A stretch of 34,646 bases of DNA from Methanomicrobia archaeon DTU008 (GTDB taxonomy: Archaea > Thermoplasmatota > Thermoplasmata > Methanomassiliicoccales > Methanomassiliicoccaceae): NCBI GenBank assembly GCA_001512965.1, contig LFRW01000019.1, positions 12,307-46,952 of the forward strand. The letters run 5' to 3'. A model generated the notes under the pieces. That model did no database searches and was not told the DNA's origin. It saw only the letters and a list, made by a program, of their open reading frames with translations. Positions 8,574-33,039 of this stretch are shown here, piece by piece. The translations under genes were made by a program, and so were the position numbers. Within the stretch, counting starts at the first letter, position 1, and each line of letters opens with the position of its first letter.

Positions 8574-8619
8574 GATGTCCACGCCGATGCCTTTCTACCT
8601 CTTTATCCCATCGGCCCCC

Positions 8620-16140: not shown

Positions 16141-17316
16141 ATGAACTCGATCCGCTACGTCGATCAGATGGACCTGGACGGTAAACGGGTCCTGCTGAGG
16201 GTCGATCTGAACGTTCCTCTGCGCAACGGCGTCGTGGCCGATGATTCGCGCATCCTTGCCGTACTGCCGACCATCGAGCATATCATAGGGGAGGGGGGCA
16301 TGCCCATCATCACCTCTCACCTGGACAGGCCAGGGGGGAAGCGCGTTCCCGAGCTGAGCCTCAGGCCGGTCAGCGAACGCCTGTCCGAGCTGACTGGCGA
16401 TAAGGTCGCCTTCGTCGACGAGGTCACGGGGCCTAAGGCGGAGGCCGCCGCGTCCTCGTTGAAGGAAGGCTCGATGCTGATGCTCGAGAACCTGAGGTTC
16501 GATCCGGGCGAGGAGGTCAATGATGAGTCGTTCGCCAGATCGTTGGCGTCCCTCGCAGATGCGTATGTGGACGATGCGTTCGCCAATGCCCACCGTGCGC
16601 ACGCATCGAACGTCGGCGTGACAAGGTTCATCGACGACGTGGCTGGAGGCCTGCTCATGAAGATGGAGCTTCAGGCGCTCGAGGGCGTCCTGGTGGCCCC
16701 CGAGAGGCCGCTGGTGGTGGCGATCGGGGGAGCGAAGGTGAGCAGCAAGATCGCCACCATAGAGCACCTGTCGAAGATCGCCGACCGGCTGCTGCTCGGC
16801 GGGGCGATGGCCTTCCCCTTCCTGAGGGCGAAAGGCATCGACGTGGGAGATCATCGCGCCGACGGCGAAGCGGTGGAGCGTGCGAAGAGGATGCTGGACG
16901 AGAGGCCAGGTTCGCTCGTGCTTCCAGAGGATTTCGCGGTGGACGACGGCGGCCGGAGGGAGGTGGACGTCACGGGCCTCCCGGAGGACATGAACGTCCT
17001 GGACATCGGTCCGCGCACCATCGACAAGTTCGCATCGGAGCTGAAGGCCGCGGGCACGATAGTATGGAACGGACCCATGGGCAAGTTCGAGGAGGAAGGT
17101 TTCGACGTCGGGACGAGGATGGTGGCCAAGGCCATCTCCGCCTCTCCCGCCTACTCGCTGGTGGGTGGAGGGGACACCAACGCCGCCCTGGACCGATATG
17201 AGGTGAGGGACAGGATATCGTATGTGTCCACGGGCGGAGGGGCCTTCCTGGAGATGCTCTCCGGAAGGGAGCTGCCGGCCGTCAAGGCGCTGGTGCGGCA
17301 GACGGTCAACGCTTGA
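16141..17316 (+). CDS. pgk: 3-Phosphoglycerate kinase
   Basis: The 391-residue product matches PGK end to end. It has the N-terminal [11 protein letters not shown] signature with the substrate-binding Asp/Asn, SHLDRPGG, and the substrate-binding segment [22 protein letters not shown] contains conserved basic residues, GGAKVSSKI binds the nucleotide, and GGGDTNAAL near the C-terminus is the nucleotide-phosphate loop. It transfers phosphate between 1,3-bisphosphoglycerate and ADP, reversibly, in glycolysis and gluconeogenesis. It is transcribed alone from its own leaderless promoter toward the carbon-metabolism run on the other strand. Its last 11 bases overlap the 3' end of the phosphoglycerate mutase gene, a tail-to-tail arrangement. 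Confidence 0.98.
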
Positions 17317-18052
17317 AGGCGGCCGCCCGGGACGCCTTCTCCTTCGCCTTCGACAGTTCATCCGGCGATGCGAGATACCGCCTGTCCTTCACGGCATCCC
17401 CCTCCATCTCATACACCAGCGGGATGCCGGTGGGGATGTTGACGCTGGCGATGTCCTCGTCGCTGATGCCGTCGAGATGCTTGACGAGCGCTCTCAGGCT
17501 GTTGCCGTGCGCGGCGATAAGGACGTCGTCCCCCCGCCGGATGCAGGGGAGGGCCTCATCGAACCAGTATGGAAGGGTCCTTTGAAGCGTGTCCTTCAGC
17601 GATTCGGTCGACGGCAGCTCTTCCGGGTGCAGGCAGCGGTATCGTGGATCGTGCGACGGATGCCTCTCGTCCGATATGTCGAGCGGGGGAGGCCTCACAT
17701 CGTACACCCTCCGCCAGGAGTGCACCTGTTCCGCCCCGTGCTTCCTTGCCATCTCCTCCTTGCTCAACCCTTGCAACGCGCCGTAGTGCTTCTCGTTCAA
17801 TCTCCATGATCGATGCAGGGGCACCCACATCAGGTCCGTGACGTCCATCACGATCCAGGCCGTGCGTATGGCGCGCTTCAGTACGGAGGTGTATGCAACG
17901 TCGAACGTGAGACCCTCGTCCCTGATTCGTTCGCCGGCATTCCTTGCCTCCTCCTTTCCACCGTCGGAGAGGTCGACGTCCGTCCAGCCGGTGAACAGGC
18001 CCGCCTCGTTCCACTCGCTGCGGCCGTGGCGCAGCAGGATGAGATGCGTCAG
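17306..18052 (-). CDS. gpmA: 2,3-Bisphosphoglycerate-dependent phosphoglycerate mutase, CTG start
   Basis: Reading from CTG 18052 gives 248 residues, the normal dPGM length, beginning (M)[20 protein letters not shown]9 in the RHG motif is the phosphohistidine and H182 in [10 protein letters not shown] is the second catalytic His; [20 protein letters not shown] and [10 protein letters not shown] are also family landmarks. It interconverts 3- and 2-phosphoglycerate. The first ATG in frame (about 17850) would delete the catalytic N-terminus. Between the upstream in-frame stop and 18052 there is no ATG, GTG or TTG. The CTG overlaps the aldolase stop as CTGA, the same geometry as the ATGA overlaps of the two preceding genes. 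Translation is presumably coupled. Many archaea use the unrelated cofactor-independent enzyme instead, so this is likely a gene of bacterial origin. Confidence 0.9.
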
Positions 18053-18963
18053 GCCCCCGGGTCCCCCCAGTAGAGCCTCATGGCCTCATGGACCGGGGCG
18101 CGATCGACCGTGACGGCATATATGGCGTCGCAGAACCTCGCCGCCTGCTCCAGTGGCTTCTGGTGTATGTTCCGCCCCGTGGCGCTGCCTCCCGCGCCGG
18201 CCTCCATCTGCCGGTGAAGCCTTTCCAGGAAGGACCTCTCGTCCATGCGGCTTCCTCCGGAGCAGAGCACCTTGCTCCTTCCAGCCGCACGGACCACTTC
18301 CTTGAAGCGCGATATGTCCGAACCATCGGGGCAGTTCAATTTGACGAAGTCCGCTCCCAGGCAGGCGCCGGCGCCCGCCGCCCCGGCGACGAGATGCGGG
18401 TCCTTCTCGTTCGGCACCGCCCTCCCGCGAGGATACATCCACAGTATGGCCGTCATTCCCAGACGATGGGCGCGATGCACTATCTGGGCGGCCTCCGTGA
18501 GCATGATCGCCTCATGCTCGCTTCCAAGATAGACGGTGTAGCCGACGCCCACGATGTCGAGGTCGTTCTCGTCCCTCAGGGCCGCGACCTCGTCGACGGC
18601 AAGCCACTGCCTGCTCAGGGGCTCCGCCTGCAAGGTCTTTACCAGGTGCGTCTTGGAGTTCAGCTTCACCACGCACGGGACGTCGGGGTGATCGGCCGCA
18701 TACCTGGCGATGAGTCCGAACTGGGTGGCGAACGCGCCTATCCTTCCCTTCGAGGCGATGCGGAAAAGGTGCTCGGGATCTCCGTCCTCGGGATCGATAC
18801 CTTCGCCATGGAAATCGTCGTTCAGATGCTCCATCTTCTGGTCCCCGGCGAACAGCATCAGCCTTCCCTTGCCGCCGGTCATCCTGTCGTATCGTTCCTG
18901 AAATGCCTTCCTCTGGTCCGGCGGCACGTCCAGAGGGACGGTCGAACTGACATTGCCGCTCAT
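18049..18963 (-). CDS. Class I fructose-1,6-bisphosphate aldolase (DhnA/FbaB type)
   Basis: The 304-residue TIM-barrel product has the features of archaeal/bacterial class I aldolases of the DhnA group: [14 protein letters not shown] near the start, a strand ending DFVKLNCP whose K208 is the expected Schiff-base lysine, VLCSGG(SR) and a phosphate-binding GRNIHQKP. It cleaves fructose-1,6-bisphosphate to glyceraldehyde-3-phosphate and dihydroxyacetone phosphate, and also the reverse. The start ATG 18963 overlaps the stop of the PfkB gene (ATGA), and its own stop overlaps the CTG of the mutase gene, so the three are probably translated as a coupled series. A separate bifunctional FBP aldolase/phosphatase is common in archaea and not seen here. 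The alternative role of the fold in aromatic amino acid synthesis is less likely in this context. Confidence 0.9.
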
Positions 18964-19904
18964 ACATCACCCTCCGAGAGGTCCTTGACAACTATGCTTG
19001 GCACCATGGCCATGATGTCCTCCCTCGTCGCCCTCGCCGTCCCGAGCTTCGTAGCGGTGGCGGTCCCGGCGGCCGTGCCATATACCAGGCAGTCCTTGAG
19101 ATCGAGGCGGTTCGCGAGACCGTAGATGAAGCCGGCCACGGCCGAGTCGCCAAGGCCTACGTTGTTCACCTTCTCCACCTTGGGAGGTATCGCATGATAC
19201 CTTTTTCCCTCCGCGACCGCGATCATGCCGTCCGCCCCCAGTGATACCAGGACCGTACCCACGCCCATGGAGCGCACCTGTTCGGCCGCCCGGATCACCT
19301 CGTACAGATCGTTGAGGGGCCTCCCGACCAGCTCGCTCATCTCCCGCCGGTTCGGCTTGATGTATTCGGGGCAGGCCTTGACGCCCGTGCGCAGGTTCTC
19401 GCCGTCCGCGTCCAGCAAGGTGATCGCCCCCTTCCTCCTCATGACGGTTATGATGCGGCGGTATGCGTCCGGGTGAACCCCTCGCGGCAGGCTGCCTCCT
19501 ATGGCCATCATGGTCGCTTCCGAGAGGCCCTCTATCTTGCGGAAGAGCGAGCCGAGCTCGTAGGGATCTATCTTCGGCCCCTTGGCGGTTAGAAGCAGAT
19601 GCCTTCCCTCGCCGGCCGTCTCGTTGACTATGATGTTCGTACGGGTCTCTCCAGACACCCGGACCATGTCCGTTTGAACGCCTTCATACTCGAGTCGGCA
19701 TTCCAACTCCTCGCCCACGAACCCGCCAACGAAGCCCAGGGCCACGTTGGGGACGCCCAGGTTGGTCAGCACCCGGGAGACGTCGATGCCTTTTCCTCCC
19801 GGATATCGTGACTCCCTAGCGACGCGTGTCGTGCCGTGGAAGTCCAACCGCTCGACCCACATGGTGCGGTCGATGGCAGGGTTCAACGCCAGGGTGTAGA
19901 TCAT
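18960..19904 (-). CDS. PfkB-family sugar-phosphate kinase (1-phosphofructokinase/tagatose-6-P kinase type)
   Basis: The 314-residue product is a ribokinase-fold kinase of the FruK/LacC/PfkB branch. It begins MIYTLALNPAIDRTMWVERL, has RYPGGKGIDVSRVLTNLG (sugar-binding signature) and a C-terminal nucleotide motif GLGDSAVAGF carrying the catalytic Asp. The usual motif has GAGD; here the Ala is Leu. Members phosphorylate fructose-6-P, fructose-1-P or tagatose-6-P. With aldolase and phosphoglucose isomerase nearby, formation of fructose-1,6-bisphosphate is the natural inference. Archaeal ADP-dependent phosphofructokinase is a different family. Its start overlaps the PEP synthase stop as ATGA, and its stop overlaps the aldolase start in the same way. 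Confidence 0.88.
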   Translation of the reverse strand: MIYTLALNPAIDRTMWVERLDFHGTTRVARESRYPGGKGIDVSRVLTNLGVPNVALGFVGGFVGEELECRLEYEGVQTDMVRVSGETRTNIIVNETAGEGRHLLLTAKGPKIDPYELGSLFRKIEGLSEATMMAIGGSLPRGVHPDAYRRIITVMRRKGAITLLDADGENLRTGVKACPEYIKPNRREMSELVGRPLNDLYEVIRAAEQVRSMGVGTVLVSLGADGMIAVAEGKRYHAIPPKVEKVNNVGLGDSAVAGFIYGLANRLDLKDCLVYGTAAGTATATKLGTARATREDIMAMVPSIVVKDLSEGDV

Positions 19905-22363
19905 TTCTTCCTCCGCCCTTCTTCATCTTCGATATTCTTTTCCCGCTCGAGCGCCTCCTCCGTCCGCACGACCCTCAACGTTACGTTCATAAGCGAGTCT
20001 GGATCGACCGATATCGAATCGATCCCTTCCCGCACCAGGAACTCGGCTATCTCTGGATGGTCTGCAGGCGCCTGCCCGCAGATCCCGCTGTGGCGGCCGT
20101 TCCTTCTTGCTCCCCGAACGGACAACGACATCGCCTTCAACACGCCCTCGTCCCTCTCGTCGAACTCCTTGGCCAGTATGTCGGAGTCTCGATCGATGCC
20201 AAGCACCAGCTGGGTCAGGTCGTTCGAGCCGACGGAGAAGCCGTCGAAGCATTGGCTGAACTCATCGATGAGAAGGAAATTGTTGGGTATCTCGCACATG
20301 ATGTACAGGCGCAGATCGTTCTCGCCCCTCACCAGTCCGTTGCGGCCCATCTCCTCCACGACCTTCTTGGCCTCCTCCACCGTGCGGCAGAACGGTATCA
20401 TGGGCACGACGTTCCTCAGCCCCATGTCCTCCCGGACCATGCGGATCGCCCGGCACTCCAGGCCGAAGCCTTCACGATACTGGTCGGAGTAGTAGCGGGA
20501 GGCGCCGCGGAAACCAAGCATCGGATTGTTCTCCTTCGGTTCGAAGGCGCTGCCGCCGATCAGGGCCGCGTACTCGTTGCTCTTCAGGTCGCTCATGCGC
20601 ACGACCACTTCCTTAGGGTAGAACGCGGCGGCGATGGTGGCGATCCCATGCGCGAGCGATTCGACGAAGTAGGCCTCGCCGTCAGGATACGCGGCGGTCA
20701 ACCGCTTGATCCCCTCCAGCTCCTGGCGGTCCTTGACCTTCTCGGGATGCAGCAAGGCCATCGGATGGACCCGGATGTAGCTGCCGATGATGAACTCCAG
20801 TCGAGCCAGTCCCACCCCGTCGTTCGGTATGAAGGAATGGGAGAACGCCTCGTCCGGGTTGCCGAGGTTCATCATCATCTCCGTCCGTGGCCTCTTCATT
20901 CCGCCGAGGTCTATTCGCTCCACGTGGAACGGCAGACGTCCCTCGTAGACGAAGCCGTCATCTCCCTCGGCGCAGCTTACCGTGACGACGTCCCCGTCGT
21001 GCAGCGAGCGTGTGGCATCGTCCGTCCCCACCACGGCAGGTATGCCGAGTTCGCGGCTCACGATGGCCGCATGCGACGTCCGGCCGCCCTGGTCGGTGAC
21101 GATGGCGGCGGCGATCTTCATGACAGGTTCCCAGTCCGGGGTCGTGCTGACCGACACGAGTATCTCGCCGGGGCGGAACGTCGACAGCTGGGTCTTGTCC
21201 GTTATGATCCGAACCTTCCCTGATGCTATCTTCGAACCTACGCTCCTTCCCTTGCTCAGCACCTTGCTTCGGGAATCCAGGACATGGTTCTCCAGGACGT
21301 CGACGGCCCGCCGGGATTGCACCGTCTCCGGCCTTGACTGTACGATGAACAGCTCGCCCGTCTCCCCGTCCTTGGCCCATTCGATGTCCATCGGCTCGGG
21401 ATTACCGGACTTCCTGGAATAATGCTCCTCGATCTTGAGCGCCGACGATGCGAGCGAAAGGACCTCATCGTCGGTCAGGCAGAACCGCAGGCGGTCCCCT
21501 TCAGGCACCTCCACGTTCTCGGTCCGCCTGCCTGCCCCGCCATCGCTGTAGATCAGCTTCTTCTCCTTGTCCCCCCTCTTCTTCCTGATAACCGCTCTCG
21601 ACCCCTGGCGGAACGTGGGCTTGAACACATAGTACTCGTCCGGATTGACAGCGCCCTGCACGACGTTCTCCCCGAGGCCGTAGGCGGCGGTGATGAACAC
21701 CACGTCTCGGAACCCGGTCTCCGTGTCAAGGGTGAAGATGACCCCGCTCGAGGCGAGGTCGGAGCGGACCATCTTCATGATGCCTATGGACAGTCCAACG
21801 TCCATCTGGCCGAACCCCTGGTCGATGCGGTAGGCGATGGCGCGGTCGGTGAACAGGGAGGCGAAGCATCCGGTGCACGCCTCCCTGAGCGCGTCATGTC
21901 CGCGAACGTTGAGGAAGGTCTCCTGCTGTCCGGCGAACGAGGCTGATGGGAGGTCTTCCGCGGTGGCGGAGGAGCGGACGGCCACGTCGGTGTCCTTGCC
22001 GTACTGGTCGCACAGCCGGTCGTACGCTTCGGCGATCTCCGCCCAGAGGTCGTCGGGGATTCCGGCGTTGCGGATGAGCTCGCGGACCCTGCTCCCCCGG
22101 GACGCGAGGTCGGCGACGTCGTTCTTGTCGACACCGTCCAGGGCCCTCTCCATCTCTTCACGGACCCCGGTCTCGGAGATCATGTGCCAGTAGCCTTCCG
22201 CCGTTACCGCGAACCCGTTCGGGACGTTGACGCCCTCCTCGCCGAGCTCCCGGTACATCTCGCCCAGGGAAGCGTTCTTGCCGCCTACCGACGGAACATC
22301 GTCGATCCCGATGTCCTTGAACCATCGGATGTATCGAGGATGCTTCTCTGCTACGCTTCCCAT
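19901..22363 (-). CDS. ppsA: Phosphoenolpyruvate synthase (pyruvate, water dikinase)
   Basis: From ATG 22363, with GGAGG just upstream, the product has 820 residues. It carries the ATP-grasp pyruvate/PPDK N-terminal domain (VGGKNASLGEM, VRSSATAEDLPSASFAGQQ), the swivelling phosphohistidine domain with H431 in GGRTSHAAIVSRELG, and the C-terminal PEP/pyruvate-binding barrel (GFRGASRYY, NDLTQLVLGIDRD, GICGQAPADHP). It makes PEP, AMP and Pi from pyruvate, ATP and water, or the reverse, and in archaea it often sets the direction of glycolysis versus gluconeogenesis. The frame extends 43 codons upstream into the GAPDH 3' end, but the internal ATG has the ribosome-binding site. It is 31 bases after the GAPDH stop and overlaps the PfkB start, in the centre of the operon. 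Confidence 0.96.
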   Translation of the reverse strand: MGSVAEKHPRYIRWFKDIGIDDVPSVGGKNASLGEMYRELGEEGVNVPNGFAVTAEGYWHMISETGVREEMERALDGVDKNDVADLASRGSRVRELIRNAGIPDDLWAEIAEAYDRLCDQYGKDTDVAVRSSATAEDLPSASFAGQQETFLNVRGHDALREACTGCFASLFTDRAIAYRIDQGFGQMDVGLSIGIMKMVRSDLASSGVIFTLDTETGFRDVVFITAAYGLGENVVQGAVNPDEYYVFKPTFRQGSRAVIRKKRGDKEKKLIYSDGGAGRRTENVEVPEGDRLRFCLTDDEVLSLASSALKIEEHYSRKSGNPEPMDIEWAKDGETGELFIVQSRPETVQSRRAVDVLENHVLDSRSKVLSKGRSVGSKIASGKVRIITDKTQLSTFRPGEILVSVSTTPDWEPVMKIAAAIVTDQGGRTSHAAIVSRELGIPAVVGTDDATRSLHDGDVVTVSCAEGDDGFVYEGRLPFHVERIDLGGMKRPRTEMMMNLGNPDEAFSHSFIPNDGVGLARLEFIIGSYIRVHPMALLHPEKVKDRQELEGIKRLTAAYPDGEAYFVESLAHGIATIAAAFYPKEVVVRMSDLKSNEYAALIGGSAFEPKENNPMLGFRGASRYYSDQYREGFGLECRAIRMVREDMGLRNVVPMIPFCRTVEEAKKVVEEMGRNGLVRGENDLRLYIMCEIPNNFLLIDEFSQCFDGFSVGSNDLTQLVLGIDRDSDILAKEFDERDEGVLKAMSLSVRGARRNGRHSGICGQAPADHPEIAEFLVREGIDSISVDPDSLMNVTLRVVRTEEALEREKNIEDEEGRRKK

Positions 22364-22394
22364 CGCCTCCTGCATGATAGGGCACCATCCAAGC

Positions 22395-23444
22395 TCATGC
22401 TCTGACCTGGGCCTCCACCCGGGTGGCCCTCTTGGGAAGCCCCTTCCGGGCCAGGAAGGCCGCCGTGTCCACCATCCTGCAGGCGAACCCATACTCGTTG
22501 TCGTACCATGCCAGCACCTTCACGGTCCGGCCGTTCAACACCTTGGTGGACTCCGCATCGATGATGGAGGAGTGGGGATCGCCCACGATGTCGACCGAGA
22601 CCAGGGGATCGTCGCTGACGGCGAGGATGTCCTTCATGCTCCCCTCGGCAGCCTTCCTCAAGGCAGAGTTGACCGCCTCCTCGGTCACGTCCTGATTCAG
22701 GTCGGCCGTGATGTCCGTCAGGGCGCCATCGGGTATCGGCGCCCGCACGGCGATCGCGTGCATCCTGCCCTCCAGCTCCGGGATGGCCTTCAGCGTGGCC
22801 TTGGAGGCGCCGGTGGAGGTCGGTACCAGGGACATCGCGGCCGCCCTTCCCCTTCGCACCTTCCTGGCCGGTGAATCGACCAGTTTCTGACTGGCGGTAT
22901 AGGCGTGGATGGTGGTCGCCATGAGATGGTCGATCCCGAAGGAGTCGTTCAAGACCTTGGCGACAGGCGCGAGGGAGTTGGTGGTGCACGATGCGATCGA
23001 TATCACCTCATGCTTCGAAGCGTCGTACATGTCCTCGTTCACGCCCAGCACCAGCGTGAGGTCGGCATTGTCCGACGGCGCACTTATGACGACCTTGGAG
23101 GCGCCCGCCTTGATGTGCCCGGCCGCCTTGGCACGGTCGCGGAAGGCTCCGGTGCATTCGAGCACGATGTCCACACCAAGCTTTCCCCACGGTATGCTGG
23201 CGGGATCGCTCTCCTTGAACATCTGGATACTGGTGTTCCCAAGACGGATGAAATCGTCCCCATGCTCCACCTCGAAGGGCGCTCTCCCATGCACGGAGTC
23301 GTACTTGGTCAGGTATGCGATGGTCTCGGCAGGATAGAGGTCGTTGGCCGCGACCAGCTCAATGCCCTCTGGAGGGTTGGTGACGAAGCGCCGGGCGATC
23401 ATCCTTCCGATGCGCCCCATTCCATTAATCGCCATTCTGGCCAT
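22395..23444 (-). CDS. gap: Glyceraldehyde-3-phosphate dehydrogenase, class I (bacterial type)
   Basis: From ATG 23444, with AAGGAGATGATGAG upstream, the product has 349 residues. The NAD-binding start is AINGMGRIGRMIARR. The acidic residue that favours NAD is at VAANDLY. The active site is SIASCTTNSLAPVAKVL with C153, and WYDNEYGFACRMVDT near the end is typical of GapA. It oxidises glyceraldehyde-3-phosphate to 1,3-bisphosphoglycerate. Most archaea use the distant class II enzyme; this one is of the bacterial/eukaryotic class, which suggests transfer. It lies 100 bases downstream of the hydroxyacid dehydrogenase and 31 bases upstream of the PEP synthase, so it is part of the same run. A 13-residue longer start (23483) is possible but lacks support. 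Confidence 0.97.
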   Translation of the reverse strand: MARMAINGMGRIGRMIARRFVTNPPEGIELVAANDLYPAETIAYLTKYDSVHGRAPFEVEHGDDFIRLGNTSIQMFKESDPASIPWGKLGVDIVLECTGAFRDRAKAAGHIKAGASKVVISAPSDNADLTLVLGVNEDMYDASKHEVISIASCTTNSLAPVAKVLNDSFGIDHLMATTIHAYTASQKLVDSPARKVRRGRAAAMSLVPTSTGASKATLKAIPELEGRMHAIAVRAPIPDGALTDITADLNQDVTEEAVNSALRKAAEGSMKDILAVSDDPLVSVDIVGDPHSSIIDAESTKVLNGRTVKVLAWYDNEYGFACRMVDTAAFLARKGLPKRATRVEAQVRA

Positions 23445-23544
23445 CTCATCATCTCCTTTGTCCGCTCCTTGGAAGGTCTTCATTAAAGAGGTTTACCGCC
23501 AGGGACGTGGAGACATCATCCTTCGGACGCCGCGAGAGGGCGGC

Positions 23545-24522
23545 TCACCCGGACCGGGGCCTGGATGCGGTGACATATTCGACCGGGACCCTCCCCTTGA
23601 TGCTCCCTGAACGGAACGACCGGATGATGTCTATGGAATGCTCGAGCATCCGTTCGACCGCCTCGCCGGTGAAGAACCCGATATGAGGTGTCATTATCAC
23701 TCGGTCCGATCCGATCAGGGGACTGCTCCCGGGATCGGACTCGTCGGCGATGACGTCGACGCCTGCCGCCCTCAGGTGGCCGCTGTCCAGCGCATCCTTC
23801 AACGCCTCCTCGTCCACGATGGGGCCCCTTGCCGTGTTTACCAATATGCTCCCCTTCCTCATCCTCTTCAGCGCTTCCCTGCCCATGAGGCCCTTCGTAT
23901 CGTCCGTGAGCGGCAGATGGATGGTGATGATATCGCTGTCCTCCAGGACCTCCTCGAGCGAGCGGTACGAGAAGGCGTGCTCTCGAGCCAGGGCCTCGTT
24001 CGGGTACATGTCGTACGCGATCACGTTCATCCCGAAACCGCGTGCGATGCGTATGACCTCCGAGCCTATCCTACCGGTACCCAGGACGCCCAGCACCTTG
24101 TCGCGCAGCTCTATGCCTCGGAACGGGTGGAAGTCGAACCGCTCATCCTCCTTCGCGGAGCGGTCCGCATCCACCAGGTCCCTGGCGCATGCCAGCATCA
24201 GGCAGAACGTGTGCTCCGCCACCACGTGCGGCCCGTATTCGGCCACATGGGTGACCTCTATCCCCTTGTCAATGGCGTGTCCGACATCGATATGGTCGAA
24301 GCCCACGCTTCTGGTGTTGATCATCCTTAGACCGGGGAGCGAATCGATGACCTCGCCGTCGACCCGCGTCCGTATGAAGACCGAAAGGACCGTTGCGCCC
24401 TCGGCCTCATGCACCAGTTCATCCCTGTCAAGGGGGTCGTCGAACATCACCAGCTCGTCGTCCGGGAACGCATCCCTCAGCCGGTCCTTCGCTCCCATGA
24501 CCTCGGTGAAGACCATCTTCAT
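23545..24522 (-). CDS. D-isomer specific 2-hydroxyacid dehydrogenase
   Basis: From ATG 24522, with GGAGGGATAGG upstream, the product has 325 residues. The NAD-binding motif is VLGVLGTGRIGSEVIRIAR, followed by an acidic residue in IAYDMYP, indicating NAD preference. The substrate Arg is in NTARGPIVDEEAL, the catalytic Glu lies further on and the catalytic His is in MTPHIGFFT. The N-terminal part (NTRSVGFDHIDV, VAEHTFCLML) resembles D-lactate dehydrogenases of the LdhA branch more than phosphoglycerate dehydrogenase, and there is no ACT or other C-terminal regulatory domain. Reduction of pyruvate to D-lactate would fit the carbon-metabolism context; that is inference. It follows the sugar fusion gene by 82 bases on the same strand. 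Confidence 0.9.
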   Translation of the reverse strand: MKMVFTEVMGAKDRLRDAFPDDELVMFDDPLDRDELVHEAEGATVLSVFIRTRVDGEVIDSLPGLRMINTRSVGFDHIDVGHAIDKGIEVTHVAEYGPHVVAEHTFCLMLACARDLVDADRSAKEDERFDFHPFRGIELRDKVLGVLGTGRIGSEVIRIARGFGMNVIAYDMYPNEALAREHAFSYRSLEEVLEDSDIITIHLPLTDDTKGLMGREALKRMRKGSILVNTARGPIVDEEALKDALDSGHLRAAGVDVIADESDPGSSPLIGSDRVIMTPHIGFFTGEAVERMLEHSIDIIRSFRSGSIKGRVPVEYVTASRPRSG

Positions 24523-24604
24523 CCTATCCCTCCGCCCCTGGGCCTGGCCGGGGCTGATGGTTCCTTCGAGGGCGACGTTAATAATGCTTGCCACCGTGAA
24601 CGGT

Positions 24605-27600
24605 CTATCGCCTCAGGTCGAACTCCAGGGTGTCGCCTGCCCTGAACTCGCGTATATCGTCACGGTAACCGACCTTGATGGGCTCTATCTCCTGCGGTTG
24701 GCTGGTCAGACGTAGCCGCTCGTGGTCGATGTCCACGTTGATCCAGTGATGGCGGTAGTCGATGTCGAAGCGCAGCCGTTTCAGCTCGGCCGGCAGCCTG
24801 GGGTTGAAACGTATCACGTCGCCCCTCGTCTCCAGGCCGGAGTAGCATCTTTGCACGATATCGACCGTGCCGGCCATCGCTCCCAGGTGGATGCCCTCGT
24901 GCGTCGTGCCGCCCTGGATGTCCGATATGTCGCTTCTCAGCGCCTCGCGGAACAGGCCCCATGACGCATCCCTGTTTATGCGGGACAGCACCCATGCATG
25001 GACCACGCGGCTAAGGGTGGACCCGTGAGAGGTCCGTCTCATGTAATAGTCCACGGTCTTCCTTATCGTATCCTCGTCAAGCCGGTAGCCTGCCCGCTCG
25101 AAGATCTCGCTCAGCTCATCGGTCGAGAACAGGTAGAAGAGCATCAGGACGTCGGCCTGCTTCGACACCTTGTAATTGTCAGGGCTGTCGCCCTCTGCCT
25201 TCAGTATGCGATCCAGCCGATGGATGTCCCCGTACCTCTCACGGTACGCCTCCCAGTCAAGCTCCATCAGGTCGTCGAATCCGTCGAACTGGCTTATGAT
25301 CCCGTCCCCGTGGAACGGGATGTACATCCGGCGGCTTATCTCATCCCATCGTGCAAGCTCCTCGTCGGTCAGCTGGAGGTCGGCCCATATGTCCCTGCGA
25401 TGCGCTATCGGCAGCATCCTCACGGCATCGAGCGTTCTGGCCAGCGCCCAGGCCGCCATGACGTTCGTGTAGGCGTTGTTGTCGATGCCTGGAACATCGG
25501 AGCCGGGATAGCGCTCATGGAACTCGTCGGGGCCCATGACCTTCAGTATCTCATATCGTTCCAGCGCCGGGTTGTACTCGACCTTGCTGGCCCAGAAGCG
25601 TGCTATGTTCACCAGCATCTCCGCGCCATATATGGCCATGAAGTCCTTGTCGCCCGAGACCTGGTAGTAGTTCCACACGTTGTATGCGATGGCCAGGCCG
25701 ATGTGGCGCTCCAGATGGGAATGGTCGGGGATCCATTCCCCCGAGACCGGGTTGAGGTGCAGCTTCTGCGCCTCCTCCCTCCCGTTGCTGCCGCTCTGCC
25801 AGGGAAACATCGCTCCCCGGTAACCGGCCTGATGCGCCGCCCATCTCGCCTCTGGAAGGCGGCGGAACCGGTACAGCAGCAAGGAACGGGTGACATCAGG
25901 GATGCGAAGGTTGAGGAACGGGAAGATGAAGATGTCGTCCCACATGATGAGCCCACGGTAAGCCTCCCCATGCAGGCCCCGGGGCGGCACTCCGGTGTCC
26001 AGGTCGATCGTGTTCATGGATACCGTCTGCAGCAGGTGGTAGATGTGCAGGTTGAGTATCTTGGCGATCATTCGCTGGTCCGTCTCCACGTGGATCCCGC
26101 ATCGCTCCCATAGGGCGCCCCAGATGTCCTTGTGCTCCTTCAACAGGTAGTTGGTGTCCGGCACGCGCTCCACGTTCTTCACCGCTTCCAGCAGCGGCTC
26201 CGATATGGCCCGGTCCTTCGACGTGAAGATGGCGCATATCTTCTCGACGCGTATCGGCAGGCCTTCCTTGACCGGTACCTTCACGACCTGCCCGACGCGG
26301 CCTTCATCCTGAAAGTTCCTGCGCTCGACGTCCAGCACCTCTCCGTCCGCCATCACCCTGGTCCTGGCGGCCTCGGCGATGCTCACCCGCGACTGGCTGG
26401 TCTCCGCCTGCATCCATATGATGTCCCCCCCGGACACGCCGCACTCCAGACCGGTCAGGTGCTTGTTGTTCAGCTGTCGATATCGTTTCACCAGGGAGTT
26501 GTCCACGTCGCCGTCGATTGCCGATATGATCTCTAGACTGCCCGACCAGTTCTCCGGCGTGATGGTGGTCACGAACGCGCCGAAGTGCTGATGCTCCATG
26601 CTGACGAAGCGCTTCTGGTGAACGCAGGTCCTCCGTCCACGACCGTCGACGAACCTCACGCTCCGGCTCAGGACGGCGTTCCTCAGGTCCAGTTCCTGAC
26701 TGTAGTTCACGATGCAGGCCGCGTCGATGTCGAACCATTCTCCTCCCTCGGCGCGGAACGTCAGGTACTGCCAGTTCGGGATGTTGACGATGCTCTCGTT
26801 CACTATGGTAAGGCCGGCTATCTCGCTCTCCAGCCGATTGTATACGCCCGCGACGTAGTTCCCCGGATAGTGGTGCTCGTCCTCATCCTTCTCAGGCGCC
26901 GAGGCCCTGGTGGCGAAGTAGCCGTTGCTTATGGTGCACAGCGCCTCTCGCAATGGCTCATCGTCCGGGTCGTATCCCTCGTACCGCAGCACCCAGTCTC
27001 CCCTTGCCGTCCATCTCTCGAACAGACCCGTCAGGCGCTCGAGGAACAAGGCGACCTCGTTGACGTCCCTTAGCGAGTACTTGGCCGCCGACTCGCGGGG
27101 GCGGTCGCTCACCACGACCGTAACGCCCGTGTCCGCCAGGACGCGGAAGGCGTCCTCGTCGGTCACATCGTCACCTATGAACAACGGAACGGTCCTGGCC
27201 CCGTCGGCCTTCATGAGGTCGAGAAGGAACTCGACCATCCTTCCCTTGTTCCAATCTATGTTCGGCAGCAGTTCGAAGACCTTCTTCCCGCCTGCCTTCC
27301 TGAGATCGGGGAACTCCTTCCAGACCTCGTCGAACACCCTTTCCAGCCGGGGAACGTCTTCCTCCTCTACCTGCCGATAATGCACGGTCACGGCGAACTT
27401 CTTCCGCTCCACCCATGCGCCGGGTATCTGTTCGGCCACGGCCAGCAGCGCCTCCTCCGCTTTCGCCAAGGAAGGTAGGAAAGGCTCGCCCTTGCCCCCC
27501 TCATGGTATGACCCTTCCGGCCCCAGGACCTCGAAGCCATGACTTCCGACGTAGGTCAGTTCCTCCAACCCCACCATCTTCCTGACATTGTCAAGGTCCC

Positions 27601-28597
27601 TGCCGCTGACGATGGAGACCAGGCAATGCTTGCTCAGCTCGGACAGGATGTGCCGCATTCGATCGGACATCGTCGCCATCCATGGTTTTTCGACTATCGG
27701 GGTCAACGTCCCGTCGTAATCAAGGAAGATCGCTGGCTCTCCTCCTGTCAAGGAACGGAATATCCTCTCGGAGCAGGACAGGGCCGAAGGAAGCCACCGC
27801 TCGGCCCTCCTCTCGCCCTCCACCACCAGTTCGGACAGGTCTCGGACCACTATGTCGGCACCATGGGCCTTGAGCTCTGCCGCCTGTTCCCCACGGTCCG
27901 CTCCGATGACCGTGGCGAAGCCTCCCGCGCTGCCTGCCTCCACCCCGGCCAGGGCGTCCTCGATCACCACCGCCCGGTCGGGCGAGACGCCCAGCCGTCT
28001 GGCCGCTTCCAGTATGATGTCCGGCGAAGGCTTCCCCCTGAGACCCAGTTCTTGTGCATCGTTGCCGTCGACCACCACTTCGAAGAGGTCGCCCAACCCA
28101 GAGCTCTCCAGGACCTTCTCCGCATTCTTGCTTGCGGTGAACAGGGCGAACCGGTAGCCGCGCGAGAGCATGTCCCGTATGAAGCTGACCGTCGTATCGT
28201 AGGGCTCCGCCCCGTACCGTTCAAGGTGTTCGACGAAGTAGTGGTTCTTCCTGTTGCCGACCCCATGGACCGTATGCTCTTCCGGCCCGTCGGAAGGATC
28301 TCCGTAAGGAAGGGATATGCCGCGCGACGCCAGGAACGATGCGGCCCCCTCATATCGCGGCTTCCCGTCGACATAACGGAGATAGTCGGAGCGTTCATCG
28401 AACGGTGTGAAGTTCTCGCCCGAGCGGGAGCGCTCCCGGAGCAGTTCGTCGAACGCGCGTTTCCACGCCGCGGCATGAACGCGCGAGGTGTTCGTGACGA
28501 CCCCATCCATGTCCAATATGAACGCATCGATGCCGTTCAGGTCCAATCTGGGCCTTTCAGGCGCGATCCCTCTAACGACCGTGACAGAAGTGCTCAT
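24605..28597 (-). CDS. Three-enzyme fusion: beta-phosphoglucomutase + trehalose-6-P phosphatase + GH65 phosphorylase
   Basis: The 1330-residue product has three catalytic modules. Residues ~24-245 are a HAD beta-phosphoglucomutase: D29/D31 in ILDMDGVV, HAAAW, YVDGKPRYEG in the cap, TASKN, GKPSPD and VIEDALAG. Residues ~285-530 are an OtsB phosphatase: FLDYDGTLTP with D293, SGRDLDNV and GDDVTDEDAF. Residues ~540-1330 are glycoside hydrolase family 65: RGLHGEAYRGLIMWDD, general acid E1025 in GPDEFHERYPG, phosphate site HGSTLS and THEGIHLGAMAG. All key residues are present. Read in sequence the domains could turn trehalose-6-P into trehalose plus phosphate, then glucose plus beta-glucose-1-P, then glucose-6-P. 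Mycobacterial OtsB1 (Rv2006) has, as I recall, the same layout and similar size. The GH65 substrate (trehalose, maltose, kojibiose) cannot be decided here. No trehalose-6-P synthase is in the window. It heads the carbon operon; no strong ribosome-binding site precedes ATG 28597. The 162 bases upstream hold no gene. Confidence 0.93.
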   Translation of the reverse strand: MSTSVTVVRGIAPERPRLDLNGIDAFILDMDGVVTNTSRVHAAAWKRAFDELLRERSRSGENFTPFDERSDYLRYVDGKPRYEGAASFLASRGISLPYGDPSDGPEEHTVHGVGNRKNHYFVEHLERYGAEPYDTTVSFIRDMLSRGYRFALFTASKNAEKVLESSGLGDLFEVVVDGNDAQELGLRGKPSPDIILEAARRLGVSPDRAVVIEDALAGVEAGSAGGFATVIGADRGEQAAELKAHGADIVVRDLSELVVEGERRAERWLPSALSCSERIFRSLTGGEPAIFLDYDGTLTPIVEKPWMATMSDRMRHILSELSKHCLVSIVSGRDLDNVRKMVGLEELTYVGSHGFEVLGPEGSYHEGGKGEPFLPSLAKAEEALLAVAEQIPGAWVERKKFAVTVHYRQVEEEDVPRLERVFDEVWKEFPDLRKAGGKKVFELLPNIDWNKGRMVEFLLDLMKADGARTVPLFIGDDVTDEDAFRVLADTGVTVVVSDRPRESAAKYSLRDVNEVALFLERLTGLFERWTARGDWVLRYEGYDPDDEPLREALCTISNGYFATRASAPEKDEDEHHYPGNYVAGVYNRLESEIAGLTIVNESIVNIPNWQYLTFRAEGGEWFDIDAACIVNYSQELDLRNAVLSRSVRFVDGRGRRTCVHQKRFVSMEHQHFGAFVTTITPENWSGSLEIISAIDGDVDNSLVKRYRQLNNKHLTGLECGVSGGDIIWMQAETSQSRVSIAEAARTRVMADGEVLDVERRNFQDEGRVGQVVKVPVKEGLPIRVEKICAIFTSKDRAISEPLLEAVKNVERVPDTNYLLKEHKDIWGALWERCGIHVETDQRMIAKILNLHIYHLLQTVSMNTIDLDTGVPPRGLHGEAYRGLIMWDDIFIFPFLNLRIPDVTRSLLLYRFRRLPEARWAAHQAGYRGAMFPWQSGSNGREEAQKLHLNPVSGEWIPDHSHLERHIGLAIAYNVWNYYQVSGDKDFMAIYGAEMLVNIARFWASKVEYNPALERYEILKVMGPDEFHERYPGSDVPGIDNNAYTNVMAAWALARTLDAVRMLPIAHRRDIWADLQLTDEELARWDEISRRMYIPFHGDGIISQFDGFDDLMELDWEAYRERYGDIHRLDRILKAEGDSPDNYKVSKQADVLMLFYLFSTDELSEIFERAGYRLDEDTIRKTVDYYMRRTSHGSTLSRVVHAWVLSRINRDASWGLFREALRSDISDIQGGTTHEGIHLGAMAGTVDIVQRCYSGLETRGDVIRFNPRLPAELKRLRFDIDYRHHWINVDIDHERLRLTSQPQEIEPIKVGYRDDIREFRAGDTLEFDLRR

Positions 28598-28759: not shown

Positions 28760-31228
28760 CTACAACGGCTGACCCCTCGAGACCTCTCCCCTCCGGATCA
28801 GCACGTTATATAGACGAACCTTGAGGTAATCGGTCACCAGCAACGCGATCACGCTCTGCGCCCAGATGAAGCCGACATATTCCAGAGGGAGCTGCGGCAG
28901 CAGTATGCCGAATGAGACGATGATGGTCGCGGTCAGCTGCGTCAGGACGATGGCCCATAGTAGCTGAGGCGCCGGTCTAACCGACCAGAAAGGACCCTTC
29001 GTGCGCGCCGCAAGAAGCACGAAGTGCCCGCCCACCGACAGTTTGAGATATATGAGCGATTGCAAGGCGGGAAGCTCGAGACGGAACACGTCCAGTGCCA
29101 GGTACAATACTATTAACGATATCGCCACGCCGATCGCACCCATGAACGTCGCCACTAGCAACAGGGTCCGCATGTCCCACCTCTCCGGCCTCATCGAATA
29201 GTTGACGTTGTCATACGCGATCGTGAGAACTGGCAGGTCGTTCAGAAGGGCCAGCAGTATGATCATCAATGCGGTTATCGGGTAGAGCTGGAAGACGATG
29301 ATGGAGAGCGCGATGAAGACCAATACCCGAACCGTTTCCGATATTCGGTAGATCGAATAGTTGATCATCCTCTGGAAGATCTTCCTGCTCTCCACCACGA
29401 CGTCGATCACTACGTCCAGTCCAGGTACCGTCAGGACGATATCGGCGGCCGATTTGGCGGCGTCGGTGGACCCCTCCACCGCTACCCCCACGTCGGCCTG
29501 CTTCAGTGCCGGGGCGTCATTGACGCCGTCGCCGGTCATGGCCACGATGTGGTCCTTCCCCTGGAGCAGCTTGACTATGCGGAACTTGTGCTCCGGGAAC
29601 ACCTCCGCGAAGCCGTCCGCCTGCTCCACGACCTCGGCAGCACTCTCGTCGGGCAGGTCGACGAAGCTGTCCGGCGTGATGATGTTGGTGCTCAACCCTA
29701 CCTGTCGGGCGACCTCCTGCGCTATGGCGGTATGGTCTCCGGTCACCATCTTGATGTCCAGACCCATTCCCTTCCCCTTGGATATGGTCTCGGCCGAGTC
29801 GTCCCGAGGCGGATCGCGCAGGCCGATCAGCCCCCGCATCTTCCAGACCCCGCCCTCCTGACGCGCCACCCCCAGCGTCCTGGAGCCACGGGATGCCATG
29901 TCGTTGACGTCCGAACGCACCTGATCCCCTATACGGTCCTTCTCCTCGACCAGGCCCAGGATCACCTGGGGCGCACCCTTGGCCACCTTGAAGTCCTTGC
30001 CATCCCGCGACACCTCGGCCTCGGTGCGCTTTATCACAGGGTCGAAGGGGACGAAGTCATTGACGACGCATCGGCCAAGCTCACCCTCGATCCCTTCGAT
30101 CGCGCCGCCCTTCTGCAGGACGGCATCGTCTATCGGGTCGTTGTCTTCGGCCCGTGAGGCCAGGACGGCGTCCAACAAGACCCGCCCCTCGTCCATGCCG
30201 CCGTATCCGATGACCTTGTCCACCGTCAGCCTGTTCTGGGTGATGGTTCCGGTCTTATCGCTGCATAGGACATCGACGCCGGCCATCTCCTCTATCGCCA
30301 CGAGCTTGCTGACTATCGCCTCCTTCTTCGCCAGGGCGATCGCCCCGATGGCCATGGTGACCGAGAGCACGGCCGGCAACGCCACCGGGATGGATGCGAT
30401 GGTGAGCACCAGGGCGAACTGCAACGTCTCCAGGAGGCTCTCGTGACGCAGTATGGCGGCGAGGAATACCAGTGCGACCAGCACGGCGGCCATCACGATC
30501 AGGTAGTTACCGATCCTCACGACATTGCGTTGGAAGTGACCAACGCTCCGGGCCTCCCCGACCATCTTGGTGGTCTTCCCGAAATAGGTGTCGCGGCCGG
30601 TGGCGACCACGAGGGCGTCCATCTCACCCTTTCGAACCAGGGAGCTCGAGTAGCAGATGTCGTCGACCTTCTTCTCGACAGGCAACGACTCGCCCGTAAG
30701 GGCGGACTGGTCCACCTCGAGATATCGTCCCTTGAACAGCCTGACGTCAGCCGGCACGATATCGCCGATCCGGACCCGGACGACGTCGCCTGGCACGAGC
30801 TCGGCGGCCGGCACATCCTTCCATGCGCCGTCCCGAAGCACGCGGGCCTCCGGCGCCAGTCTCCTCTTGAGCATCTCGATGGCATTGCCGGCCTTCCTTT
30901 CCTGGTAGAAACCTACCAGGGCGTTCGTGATGAGAAGGGCCAGGATTATGAGGAACTCCTCCCAATGGCCGATCGCGGCCGAGAGGCCCATGGCGACCAT
31001 GATCATGAACGGAATGGGGCCCCAGAAATGACGGAGGAACTCCTCCGCCGGATGCCTCTTCCTCTCTGCCAGTTCGTTCCTGCCGTAGCGTTCGAGGCGG
31101 GCACGGACTTCCTCGCTGGTCAATCCACCCTCATCACTGGACAGTCTGGAGAACGCCTCGGCTGCCGTCTCCTCATCCCCGCGCCCTCCAGATCCTGGGA
31201 TGCCCTTCTCGGGACCGACCTCGGCCAT
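28760..31228 (-). CDS. Plasma-membrane H+-ATPase-type P-type ATPase (P3A)
   Basis: The 822-residue product has the full P-type ATPase plan. There is an N-terminal cytoplasmic region with LTSEEVRARLERYGRNEL, an actuator loop DQSALTGESLPVEKK, M4 with IASIPVALPAVLSV, the phosphorylation motif CSDKTGTIT with D324, the hinge MTGDGVNDAPALK, and about ten membrane helices. The M4 sequence and the LLNDLPVLTIAYDN block in the M6 region are hallmarks of proton-pumping P3A enzymes rather than Ca, K or heavy-metal pumps. It should export protons, or in reverse contexts maintain pH, at the cost of ATP. No C-terminal autoinhibitory extension is present. It is divergent from pgi with a TATA-like element about 35 bases upstream, and its stop lies 162 bases before the sugar fusion gene. 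P-type proton pumps are scattered in Thermoplasmata and some methanogens. Confidence 0.95.
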   Translation of the reverse strand: MAEVGPEKGIPGSGGRGDEETAAEAFSRLSSDEGGLTSEEVRARLERYGRNELAERKRHPAEEFLRHFWGPIPFMIMVAMGLSAAIGHWEEFLIILALLITNALVGFYQERKAGNAIEMLKRRLAPEARVLRDGAWKDVPAAELVPGDVVRVRIGDIVPADVRLFKGRYLEVDQSALTGESLPVEKKVDDICYSSSLVRKGEMDALVVATGRDTYFGKTTKMVGEARSVGHFQRNVVRIGNYLIVMAAVLVALVFLAAILRHESLLETLQFALVLTIASIPVALPAVLSVTMAIGAIALAKKEAIVSKLVAIEEMAGVDVLCSDKTGTITQNRLTVDKVIGYGGMDEGRVLLDAVLASRAEDNDPIDDAVLQKGGAIEGIEGELGRCVVNDFVPFDPVIKRTEAEVSRDGKDFKVAKGAPQVILGLVEEKDRIGDQVRSDVNDMASRGSRTLGVARQEGGVWKMRGLIGLRDPPRDDSAETISKGKGMGLDIKMVTGDHTAIAQEVARQVGLSTNIITPDSFVDLPDESAAEVVEQADGFAEVFPEHKFRIVKLLQGKDHIVAMTGDGVNDAPALKQADVGVAVEGSTDAAKSAADIVLTVPGLDVVIDVVVESRKIFQRMINYSIYRISETVRVLVFIALSIIVFQLYPITALMIILLALLNDLPVLTIAYDNVNYSMRPERWDMRTLLLVATFMGAIGVAISLIVLYLALDVFRLELPALQSLIYLKLSVGGHFVLLAARTKGPFWSVRPAPQLLWAIVLTQLTATIIVSFGILLPQLPLEYVGFIWAQSVIALLVTDYLKVRLYNVLIRRGEVSRGQPL

Positions 31229-31311: not shown

Positions 31312-31359
31312 CCGCCCGGTCCGAGGATGGATGACGAGCGCGAGACAGGTGGGGAGGCC

Positions 31360-33039
31360 ATGGAACTGGAACTTGGACCATACAGGGACAGGGTCGATGC
31401 GAGATTGGAACGATGGGCGGAAATGGACCTTCCAGGCAGACTCAAGGAGAAGGACCTCTCCTTGTGGCGAACAAGGAAGGGGAGGGTGACCGATATGCTT
31501 GGATGGCTCTCCCTGAGGGAGTGCATGCGGTCACAGATGGACGACATCATCGACCTCTCGCGGCAGGCATGCTCCGACGGCATCACGGACGTCGTCCTGC
31601 TAGGGATGGGGGGATCCAGTATGGCTCCGCTCGTGTTCCGCAAGACCTTCGGGGTGGCCGACGAGCATCCCGACCTCACCGTACTGGACACGACCCATCC
31701 CGATGAGGTGAGCGATGAGGTGAGAGGGGTGATGGAGCGGATCGATCCGAGCGGCACGTTGTTCATCGTGTCCAGCAAGTCTGGCGGCACGATCGAGACG
31801 ATGTCCCTGTACAATTATTTCTGGGACGAGATGAGCTCGGCCGTGACGGATGCAGGGAGGCACTTCGTGGCGATAACCGATCCAGGAACGCCTCTGGCGA
31901 AGCTTGCCTCCGGGAGACGTTTCAGGAAGACCTTCGAGGGCAGCCCGGACGTGGGAGGTCGTTATTCCGCGCTGTCCGCCTTCGGCCTGGTCCCGGCAGC
32001 CTTGATCGGTGTCGACGTGCGCTCGATGCTCGAGATTGCCTTCGATGCGTGGGAAGGCGCTGCCGCCTCGAACATCAGGCGTCAAGAAGGCCTGGTCCTC
32101 GGGGCAGCGCTGGGCGAGCTTGCGGGCGCGGGGAGGGATAAGGCGACCATCTTGACATCCGATCCGCTGCAAAGCTTTCCTCTATGGACCGAGCAGTTGA
32201 TCGCCGAGAGCACCGGCAAGGACGGGAGCGGCATCATCCCGGTCACAGGCGAGCCGTGGCTCGATCCCAGTGCATACTCGTCCGACAGGACCTTCGTCGG
32301 CATCTCCCTTGTCGAAGAGGATAAGGTCATCTCGGAACGCCTGGGAGAGCTGGCCGACGCCGGCCATCCTACGATGCACATGATCATGGAGGACAGGATG
32401 GAGCTGGGCCGCGTCATGTTCGAGTGGGAGTTGGCGATCGCATCGGCCGCCATGATCCTGGGGATCGACCCTTTCGATCAACCGGATGTGCAGGCCGCCA
32501 AGGAGCTGGCGTGGACCATCGTCTCCGAGGGATCTTCGATGGAGCGAGGTGAGAGGGAGGTGTCCACTTACCATCTGGATGAGCCGGACGAGCTCATGGC
32601 TGCCGCCGAGGAATGGGCGGAGGGAGCTCAGGAGGGCGATTACATCGCGATACAGGCATTCCTAGGCTGCCGTCCAGAGGTCCAAGACGAGCTGGGGCGG
32701 CTGCAGGGGGACCTATTGACCGCGACGGGGCTGCCCACCACCCTCGGCCATGGGCCCAGGTACCTGCACTCCACGGGACAGCTACACAAGGGAGGTCCGA
32801 ACACCGGGCTGTTCCTGCAGCTGGTCGATAGAACTGTCGACCTTCCTGTTCCAGGGGAGGGATATTCCTTCAGAGACCTGACCAGGGCGGAGGCCCTCGG
32901 CGACATCATGGTCCTCAACGAACGGGGAAGACGGACGCTTCGCGTCGACCTGGACGACGAGGGCGCCGAAGGTGTCGCGAAGCTGAGGGACCTCCTCAAC
33001 GTGATGTTCCAGACCAGGGTCGTGAGCCTGCTGGCATGA
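31360..33039 (+). CDS. pgi: Glucose-6-phosphate isomerase (PGI superfamily, tal-pgi type)
   Basis: From ATG 31360 the product has 559 residues. It has two SIS-type sugar-phosphate domains: LLGMGGSSMAPLVFRKTFG, LDTTHPDEV, and SSKSGGTIET for the sugar-phosphate loop; then ESTGKDGSGIIPV and a C-terminal HGPRYLHSTGQLHKGGPNTG carrying the conserved His and Lys. This pattern is most like the isomerase half of bacterial transaldolase/PGI fusion proteins. The transaldolase half is absent. It interconverts glucose-6-P and fructose-6-P, linking the sugar fusion enzyme to the PfkB kinase and aldolase across the divergent promoter. ATG 31327 would add 11 residues but precedes the transcription start predicted from the TATA box, while AGGTGGGGAGG precedes ATG 31360. 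It is not the cupin-type PGI found in several archaea. Confidence 0.93.
   Translation: MELELGPYRDRVDARLERWAEMDLPGRLKEKDLSLWRTRKGRVTDMLGWLSLRECMRSQMDDIIDLSRQACSDGITDVVLLGMGGSSMAPLVFRKTFGVADEHPDLTVLDTTHPDEVSDEVRGVMERIDPSGTLFIVSSKSGGTIETMSLYNYFWDEMSSAVTDAGRHFVAITDPGTPLAKLASGRRFRKTFEGSPDVGGRYSALSAFGLVPAALIGVDVRSMLEIAFDAWEGAAASNIRRQEGLVLGAALGELAGAGRDKATILTSDPLQSFPLWTEQLIAESTGKDGSGIIPVTGEPWLDPSAYSSDRTFVGISLVEEDKVISERLGELADAGHPTMHMIMEDRMELGRVMFEWELAIASAAMILGIDPFDQPDVQAAKELAWTIVSEGSSMERGEREVSTYHLDEPDELMAAAEEWAEGAQEGDYIAIQAFLGCRPEVQDELGRLQGDLLTATGLPTTLGHGPRYLHSTGQLHKGGPNTGLFLQLVDRTVDLPVPGEGYSFRDLTRAEALGDIMVLNERGRRTLRVDLDDEGAEGVAKLRDLLNVMFQTRVVSLLA

Follow-up and report, generated by a model that had tools for sequence, protein, structure and literature searches.

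The window analyzed here, a 34,646-nt stretch of the genome of Methanomicrobia archaeon DTU008 (contig LFRW01000019.1), carries a single open reading frame (ORF) in which a beta-phosphoglucomutase (beta-PGM)-type module, a trehalose-6-phosphate (T6P) phosphatase module (OtsB), and a glycoside hydrolase family 65 (GH65) module are fused. We tentatively propose, with confidence slightly under even, that the protein is a trifunctional enzyme around T6P that runs mainly in the synthetic direction. The beta-PGM module would convert one glucose-6-phosphate (G6P) to beta-glucose-1-phosphate (beta-G1P), the GH65 module would work as a T6P phosphorylase in reverse, forming T6P and phosphate (Pi) from beta-G1P and a second G6P, and OtsB would hydrolyze T6P irreversibly to trehalose and so pull the reaction. 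The net conversion would be 2 G6P + H2O → trehalose + 2 Pi, with neither a nucleotide sugar nor OtsA, and G6P would be fed from the gluconeogenic operon that the fusion heads. We infer each activity, the direction of the pathway, and any advantage of fusing the modules from the modules themselves, their intact residues, the GH65 fingerprint, and the recurrence and contexts of the triad. The observation on which the preliminary description of this DNA was built, three fused modules with all catalytic residues intact in one ORF, was confirmed by Pfam and by a residue check, and its interpretation is partly supported.

Pfam assigned residues 23-226 of the 1330-residue protein to the HAD/beta-PGM domain, residues 291-511 to Trehalose_PPase (174.9 bits against a cut-off of 27), and residues 539-794, 850-1245, and 1255-1309 to the N-terminal, central (437 bits), and C-terminal domains of GH65; PF03636, PF03632, and PF03633 all scored above cut-off, making the GH65 domain set complete. 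The expected residues are in place in the beta-PGM module (D29, D31, S156, K189, E213, and D214) and in OtsB (D293, D295, S331, R333, K399, D476, and D477), and E1025 of the GH65 module aligns with the general acid Glu of the kojibiose phosphorylase (KP), maltose phosphorylase (MP), and GGP references. The catalytic residues of all three modules are also kept among the relatives. For OtsB, conservation of the DYDGT and GDDxTD motifs was discounted since the search patterns were built on them, and the OtsB residues checked outside these patterns are likewise kept. OtsB scored above the cut-off of the trehalose-phosphatase model TIGR00685 with its HAD motifs intact, which places it in that family. 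The HAD module scored 96 bits with the beta-PGM equivalog TIGR01990, below the cut-off of 189.4, and fell one bit under the cut-off (153.35) of the broader beta-PGM subfamily TIGR02009; we therefore call it beta-PGM type and base the mutase assignment on residues and context. The ORF is not a chance product, since full-length relatives with 57-86% identity are present in 8 more genomes of this family. Phosphatase activity of OtsB on T6P is predicted, and all three modules are probably active.

The OtsB module might instead be a T6P-binding regulatory domain without phosphatase activity, as, according to a passage in a 2024 review, OtsB2 alone shows this activity in Mycobacterium tuberculosis (PMC11046441). 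However, every OtsB catalytic residue checked is retained, including those outside the search patterns, and the module is the sole T6P phosphatase of the archaeon's genome; moreover, PMC12090744 points out that no data accompanied the 2004 claim about OtsB1. We consider a purely regulatory OtsB very improbable.

Six positions (64, 392, 394, 402, 416, and 585 of CsKP) separate the GH65 specificities, and the fingerprints tabulated by De Beul et al. (PMC8537180) include DQGQDE for T6P phosphorylase, TRIGPP for trehalose phosphorylase, EEAPxx for KP, and KV[MF]NES for MP. At these positions the archaeal protein has S602, Q934, G936, Q944, and D958; the first alignments with 3wiq add E1135. A slower alignment places R1127 at the sixth position; the solved structure 9lb6 shifts along with the archaeal sequence and agrees with it either way, so position 585 is alignment-dependent and carries no information. 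The resulting SQGQDE thus departs from the T6P phosphorylase fingerprint by S for D at position 64. As internal checks, the MP and KP references showed the motifs expected of them, and kojibiose-like motifs were read in the three weaker GH65 loci of Gammaproteobacteria (L146-L148). Among 86 GH65 rows including the archaeal one, 45 read DQGQDE, 20 read SQGQDE, and 21 were variants or gapped. The phosphate site of GH65 phosphorylases is described as two Ser, a His, and a Lys (PMC8626586), and R873, S1193, T1194, and H1237 preserve this pattern (K/R, S-S/T, H) with conservative changes common to 9lb6. The T6P-type identity of the module is well supported by these sequence features. The module probably acts on T6P, and its predicted reaction is the reversible, phosphate-dependent cleavage of this compound.

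It had been proposed in the preliminary description that OtsB releases trehalose, that the GH65 module phosphorolyzes it, and that beta-PGM turns the product into G6P. All three modules are indeed present, and the GH65 family includes trehalose phosphorylases, as listed in PMC8537180. However, the archaeal sequence agrees with TRIGPP at none of the six positions, and trehalose phosphorylase was rejected as the GH65 function on this basis; the module should act on T6P and not on the trehalose made by OtsB, which would leave the second step of such a relay without an enzyme. We regard the relay as highly unlikely.

Among solved structures, the GH65 module is nearest to 9lb6 from Weissella ceti, a GH65 protein of 775 residues standing alone. 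In the PDB it scored highest by sequence (478.8 bits), and, for an AF2 model of the module (pLDDT 93.6), it was also the best structural match among the structures listed, with a Z score of 47.1 (33% identity, rmsd 1.9 over 772 residues) compared with 43.0 for kojibiose phosphorylase. In a quick GH65 tree, a single clade of 65 out of 71 rows (SH-aLRT 100) unites 9lb6 with the triad GH65s, although this tree has 15 open forks and a long 9lb6 branch and supports the broad split only. R1127, R1130, H947, and N949 are the same in 9lb6 and different in three other references, which makes them candidates only for a pocket binding the phosphate of G6P. The depositors label 9lb6 both as T6P hydrolase and as T6P phosphatase; we found no paper explaining these labels, which are no proof of phosphorolysis. 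They would fit a GH65 that is a hydrolase or uses another acceptor; on this reading, the S-type branch of archaea, mycobacteria, and Dehalococcoidia would have moved away from T6P. The serine at position 64 is invariant in nine aligned archaeal members and common in mycobacterial loci, and E1234 is conserved here but missing from three reference phosphorylases. Nevertheless, the remaining fingerprint positions are those of T6P phosphorylase, the phosphate-site residues are kept, and Q1228 stands where the general base E616 of Flavobacterium FjGH65A, as given in PMC8626586, would fall, a placement made by spacing only, with no direct alignment to 7fe3 across that region. We therefore consider such a change of function improbable.

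The fusion represents one arrangement of a triad that is widespread and extends beyond mycobacteria and one archaeon. The main set of relatives comprised the best 80 of 541 loci found by an OtsB-motif pattern search, ranked by match to the whole query. They come from many phyla, and the triad recurs across many bacterial ones in fused and split forms: a bPGM-OtsB fusion with a separate GH65 in 40, single-ORF triple fusions in 10, three separate ORFs in 9, bPGM-OtsB without GH65 in the locus in 5, bPGM-GH65 in 4, bPGM with OtsB-GH65 in 3, OtsB-GH65 without detected bPGM in 3, and other layouts in 6. Because this search favors OtsB, we also searched by GH65 alone. Among Gammaproteobacteria, 10 of 274 genomes matched, 7 of them strongly (2 already in the set); all five new strong loci have OtsB adjacent or fused, and four have beta-PGM. 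Among Actinomycetota, 64 of 396 genomes matched. We took 67 of the 71 GH65 matches there, the other 4 lying in loci already in the set. OtsB was present nearby or as a fusion partner in 34 of the 67 and beta-PGM in 40; 23 had both, and 16 had neither. The archaeal phylum gave matches in 8 of 389 genomes; triple fusions occur beyond the family in G862 and also in Candidatus Ethanoperedens (L053). In a quick tree the archaeal family branches within bacteria, beside Dehalococcoidia, which suggests that the fusion was acquired from bacteria by transfer.

The synthetic direction is consistent with work on known T6P phosphorylases. The Lactococcus lactis enzyme makes T6P from beta-G1P and G6P in vitro, with a yield of 93% from maltose, and the T6P-forming step is called nearly irreversible towards T6P in a passage of PMC13121652, where an equilibrium constant of 760 is given once for the overall reaction and once for this step. 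A DQGQDE enzyme likewise produced T6P in an experiment reported in PMC8537180. The system described in PMC13121652, which combines maltose phosphorylase, T6P phosphorylase, and PPGK or beta-PGM (the latter in one version cited there), uses the same OtsA-free T6P-forming reaction as proposed here, but it is an engineered mixture without a phosphatase that its authors term new-to-nature, whereas the archaeal protein has three natural modules in one chain. A breakdown route would hardly explain the fusion, since OtsB and GH65 would compete for T6P; the arrangement is easier to understand if T6P is a shared intermediate that GH65 makes and OtsB removes. The equilibrium constant of beta-PGM is about 28, and by a rough estimate with this value the conversion of 2 G6P to T6P and Pi would still be favorable. 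Considering these points, we judge synthesis as the main net direction to be close to an even proposition, though on the lower side of it.

The T6P phosphorylase (EC 2.4.1.216) of L. lactis and Caldithrix abyssi has a near-identical fingerprint and, as here, a beta-PGM partner. It differs in having D at position 64 and a separate beta-PGM, whereas the archaeal fusion has S and its genome no phosphotransferase system (PTS) EIIB. The L. lactis enzyme is PTS-fed and is not known to be fused to OtsB. EIIB, the sole PTS domain sought, was found in 5 of 80 genomes (the archaeal genome, G000, plus all but one of the 80 triad genomes) and not in the other 75, so trehalose import by a PTS was rejected as the source of T6P for the archaeon and most relatives.

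OtsA could be another supplier of T6P. The search for it proposed in the preliminary description found one OtsA-type GT20 in the archaeon's genome, on a small contig (G000:C18:214-1590). In the triad genomes OtsA scored above cut-off in 37 of 50 and 25 of 30, that is, in 62 of 80, and was absent from 18 (13 and 5, respectively). The second set also held 14 genomes of archaeal relatives, which do not enter these counts. A plain argument from the lack of OtsA is weakened by these counts and now stands on the 18 genomes without it. Seventeen of these 18 have a single OtsB, compared with at least two OtsB in 23 of 36 OtsA-bearing genomes (Fisher p 3e-5); the 36 were taken from G101-G149, those among G150-G180 being left out. 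OtsA tends to bring its own OtsB, and the triad retains its OtsB without OtsA, a pattern that fits a self-contained triad in the OtsA-less lineages but does not settle the case of the archaeon. In 16 of the 18 (all but L126 and L127) the locus includes a GH65; L093 (G135) among these has PTS EIIB, leaving 15 with neither OtsA nor EIIB, including the named isolates Thioalkalivibrio thiocyanoxidans (L059), Kineobactrum sediminis (L077), and Legionella saoudiensis (L099).

Several observations weigh against synthesis as the main role. L. lactis reportedly uses its T6P phosphorylase for breakdown. The serine at position 64 is typical of the archaeal and mycobacterial branch, whose acceptor may differ, and 33 of the 67 actinobacterial GH65 loci have no OtsB nearby, so that GH65 can work without an adjacent OtsB. 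Several OtsA-less genomes are metagenome-assembled, and some absences may be gaps; the OtsA and phosphoenolpyruvate (PEP) synthase counts also ignore shared ancestry. Some triads have clusters with TreY and TreS representatives in their vicinity (5 and 4 loci, respectively), which would provide trehalose by other routes. Finally, OtsA is widespread in the triad genomes, and the archaeon has OtsA with the fusion's OtsB as its only T6P phosphatase, so OtsA could supply T6P. This last point leads to the main rival to synthesis, T6P salvage: OtsA would make T6P, and the fusion would split it between trehalose (by OtsB) and two G6P (by GH65 and beta-PGM), controlling the T6P level. The archaeal relatives with the fusion also have OtsA (in G011 only as pieces), the fusion's OtsB is usually their only OtsB, and OtsA-like ORFs of one cluster occur in 13 of 80 triad loci. 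However, phosphorolyzing T6P made from a nucleotide sugar would be wasteful, the thermodynamics published in PMC13121652 favor T6P formation, and 18 of 80 triad genomes have no OtsA. We consider salvage rather unlikely.

Synthesis from G6P would suit the gluconeogenic setting of the triad. PEP synthase (at least 500 bits) is encoded in 8 of 80 triad loci, compared with 0.21 expected at one copy per 4 Mb; these loci belong to Chloroflexota, mycobacteria, and several proteobacterial lines, and the enzyme is also encoded in the archaeon's operon. NCBIfam confirmed PEP synthase in 4 of the 8 loci (4 checked). Passages on M. tuberculosis OtsB1 report that it is regulated by DosR and KstR1 and, in one proteome, was detected only in carbon-starved cells (PMC12090744), and that an otsB1 knockout had no discernible defect in planktonic growth (PMC6606615). 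The PEP synthase neighbors and the OtsB1 reports fit a role under gluconeogenic conditions, but are no proof of it. A P-type ATPase adjoining the triad, also in 8 of 80 loci, was not used as context: in the two checked, Ca2+-type models were best, though below cut-off, whereas the window encodes the H+ type.

Mycobacterial OtsB1 (Rv2006 type) had been named earlier as a protein of the same layout. The comparison covered eight mycobacterial loci (L057, L060-L063, L103, L114, and L117) rather than Rv2006 itself. The parallel holds for module order, length class, and the S-type GH65 fingerprint, but not for the beta-PGM residues, which are lost in 7 of 8 mycobacterial loci and intact in the archaeal module; the archaeal protein is thus the more complete machine. 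The OtsB residues are retained in all 8, with K399 replaced by R in L114 and K438 replaced by R in all. The earlier remark that mycobacteria lack a metabolic context did not stand, as PEP synthase lies immediately upstream in L103 and L114, and the archaeal operon has PEP synthase too.

A literature search by domain names found no paper on the fusion, and no description of the triad as a route of synthesis was found in the passages covered either, most subscription journals lying outside the coverage. In the parts of a 2025 review of T6P that treat it, TrePP is given only as a T6P-degrading route (PMC12125463). It is possible, though somewhat short of an even chance, that the triad is a natural trehalose route free of OtsA and nucleotide sugar, consisting of beta-PGM, a reversed T6P phosphorylase, and the pull of OtsB, present in many bacterial phyla and some archaea, with its parts joined in one polypeptide in this archaeon and in OtsB1-type proteins, and with PEP synthase as its link to gluconeogenesis. 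If so, a further trehalose pathway has been overlooked, with its phosphorylase filed under degradation, and the reaction of a published new-to-nature route already has a natural setting. There would also be a testable role for M. tuberculosis OtsB1, described as biochemically uncharacterized in a passage of PMC12090744. If salvage is correct, the fusion would be a built-in control of the T6P level. The two readings are separable with one purified protein.

The genome of the archaeon (G000) measures 1.76 Mb in 59 contigs and is 98.98% complete. Its small-subunit (SSU) rRNA is archaeal, the archaeal model outscoring the other SSU models of its clan, in line with the host assigned earlier. It encodes one GH65, and its sole Trehalose_PPase match is the OtsB of the fusion. 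The fusion does head a carbon operon, as stated in the preliminary description: five same-strand genes follow, for a 2-hydroxyacid dehydrogenase, GAPDH, PEP synthase, a PfkB kinase, and an aldolase, with gaps of at most 61 bp or overlaps (Table 1). Parts of this order recur in archaeal relatives of the same family, e.g., L039, L041, and L046. The nearby pgi noted earlier corresponds to a PGI-like ORF, although its PF00342 match is partial.

Table 1. Features of the window and the evidence for each
Feature	Coordinates	Strand	Evidence and remarks
beta-PGM - OtsB - GH65 triple-fusion ORF, 1330 aa	24605..28597	-	ORF and Pfam
beta-PGM-type HAD module, residues 23-258	27824..28531	-	TIGR02009 152.5 bits, Pfam Hydrolase, residue check
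OtsB/T6P phosphatase module, residues 288-523	27029..27736	-	TIGR00685 178.1 bits, cut-off 68.05
GH65 module, residues 535-1309	24671..26995	-	Pfam, fingerprint, AF2 model
D-2-hydroxyacid dehydrogenase	23545..24594	-	10 bp downstream of fusion
GAPDH, type I (bacterial-type)	22395..23483	-	TIGR01534 398.4 bits, above cut-off
PEP synthase (pyruvate, water dikinase)	19901..22492	-	TIGR01418 1123.3 bits, above cut-off
PfkB-family sugar-phosphate kinase (1-phosphofructokinase type)	18960..19904	-	TIGR03828 301.4 bits, above cut-off
DeoC/LacD-family aldolase (NF005321)	18049..18963	-	Family profiles
P-type proton ATPase	28760..31228	-	Upstream of fusion, 162 bp gap; TIGR01647 995.8 bits, above cut-off
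PGI-like ORF, divergent	31327..33039	+	PF00342 66.8 bits, partial match; NF007080 558.2 bits, cut-off 712 not reached
Phosphoglycerate kinase, convergent with operon	16141..17316	+	PF00162 438.3 bits

The true start of the PEP synthase ORF is probably about 50 codons past the first ATG, which would remove its overlap with GAPDH; the TIGR01418 match begins at residue 54.

Some variants were seen among the relatives. In an archaeal relative (L009, G005), Tyr replaces the second catalytic Asp (D31) of the beta-PGM module, and further fragments of a second copy of the fusion lie on other contigs of G005. L038 (G011:C39, 9497-13874) is a split form with a separate beta-PGM ORF beside OtsB-GH65, the full fusion lying elsewhere in G011. 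In L048 and L049 (G007 and G009), with neither GH65 nor OtsA, an OtsB 50-51% identical to that of the fusion has fibronectin-III and Fic-domain ORFs nearby. L146 (G191, 4380-10020) carries a kojibiose-phosphorylase-type GH65 (EEAPH) 1.6 kb from a bPGM-OtsB fusion, from which the bPGM-OtsB pair may partner other GH65s too. The actinobacterial bPGM-GH65 fusions without OtsB in L236, L238, L239, and L240 have the fingerprint HQGPDE, between known kinds. A small P-loop protein adjoins the triad genes in L100, L101, L102, L104, L108, and L110 (Bacteroidota/Fibrobacterota), and one member matches the phosphoribulokinase/uridine kinase family. Elsewhere in the window, a possible integrated element lies at positions 1073-4089, where an ORF with a Fic domain is accompanied by a phage-type integrase that overlaps at its end with a tRNA gene (4017-4089, minus strand).

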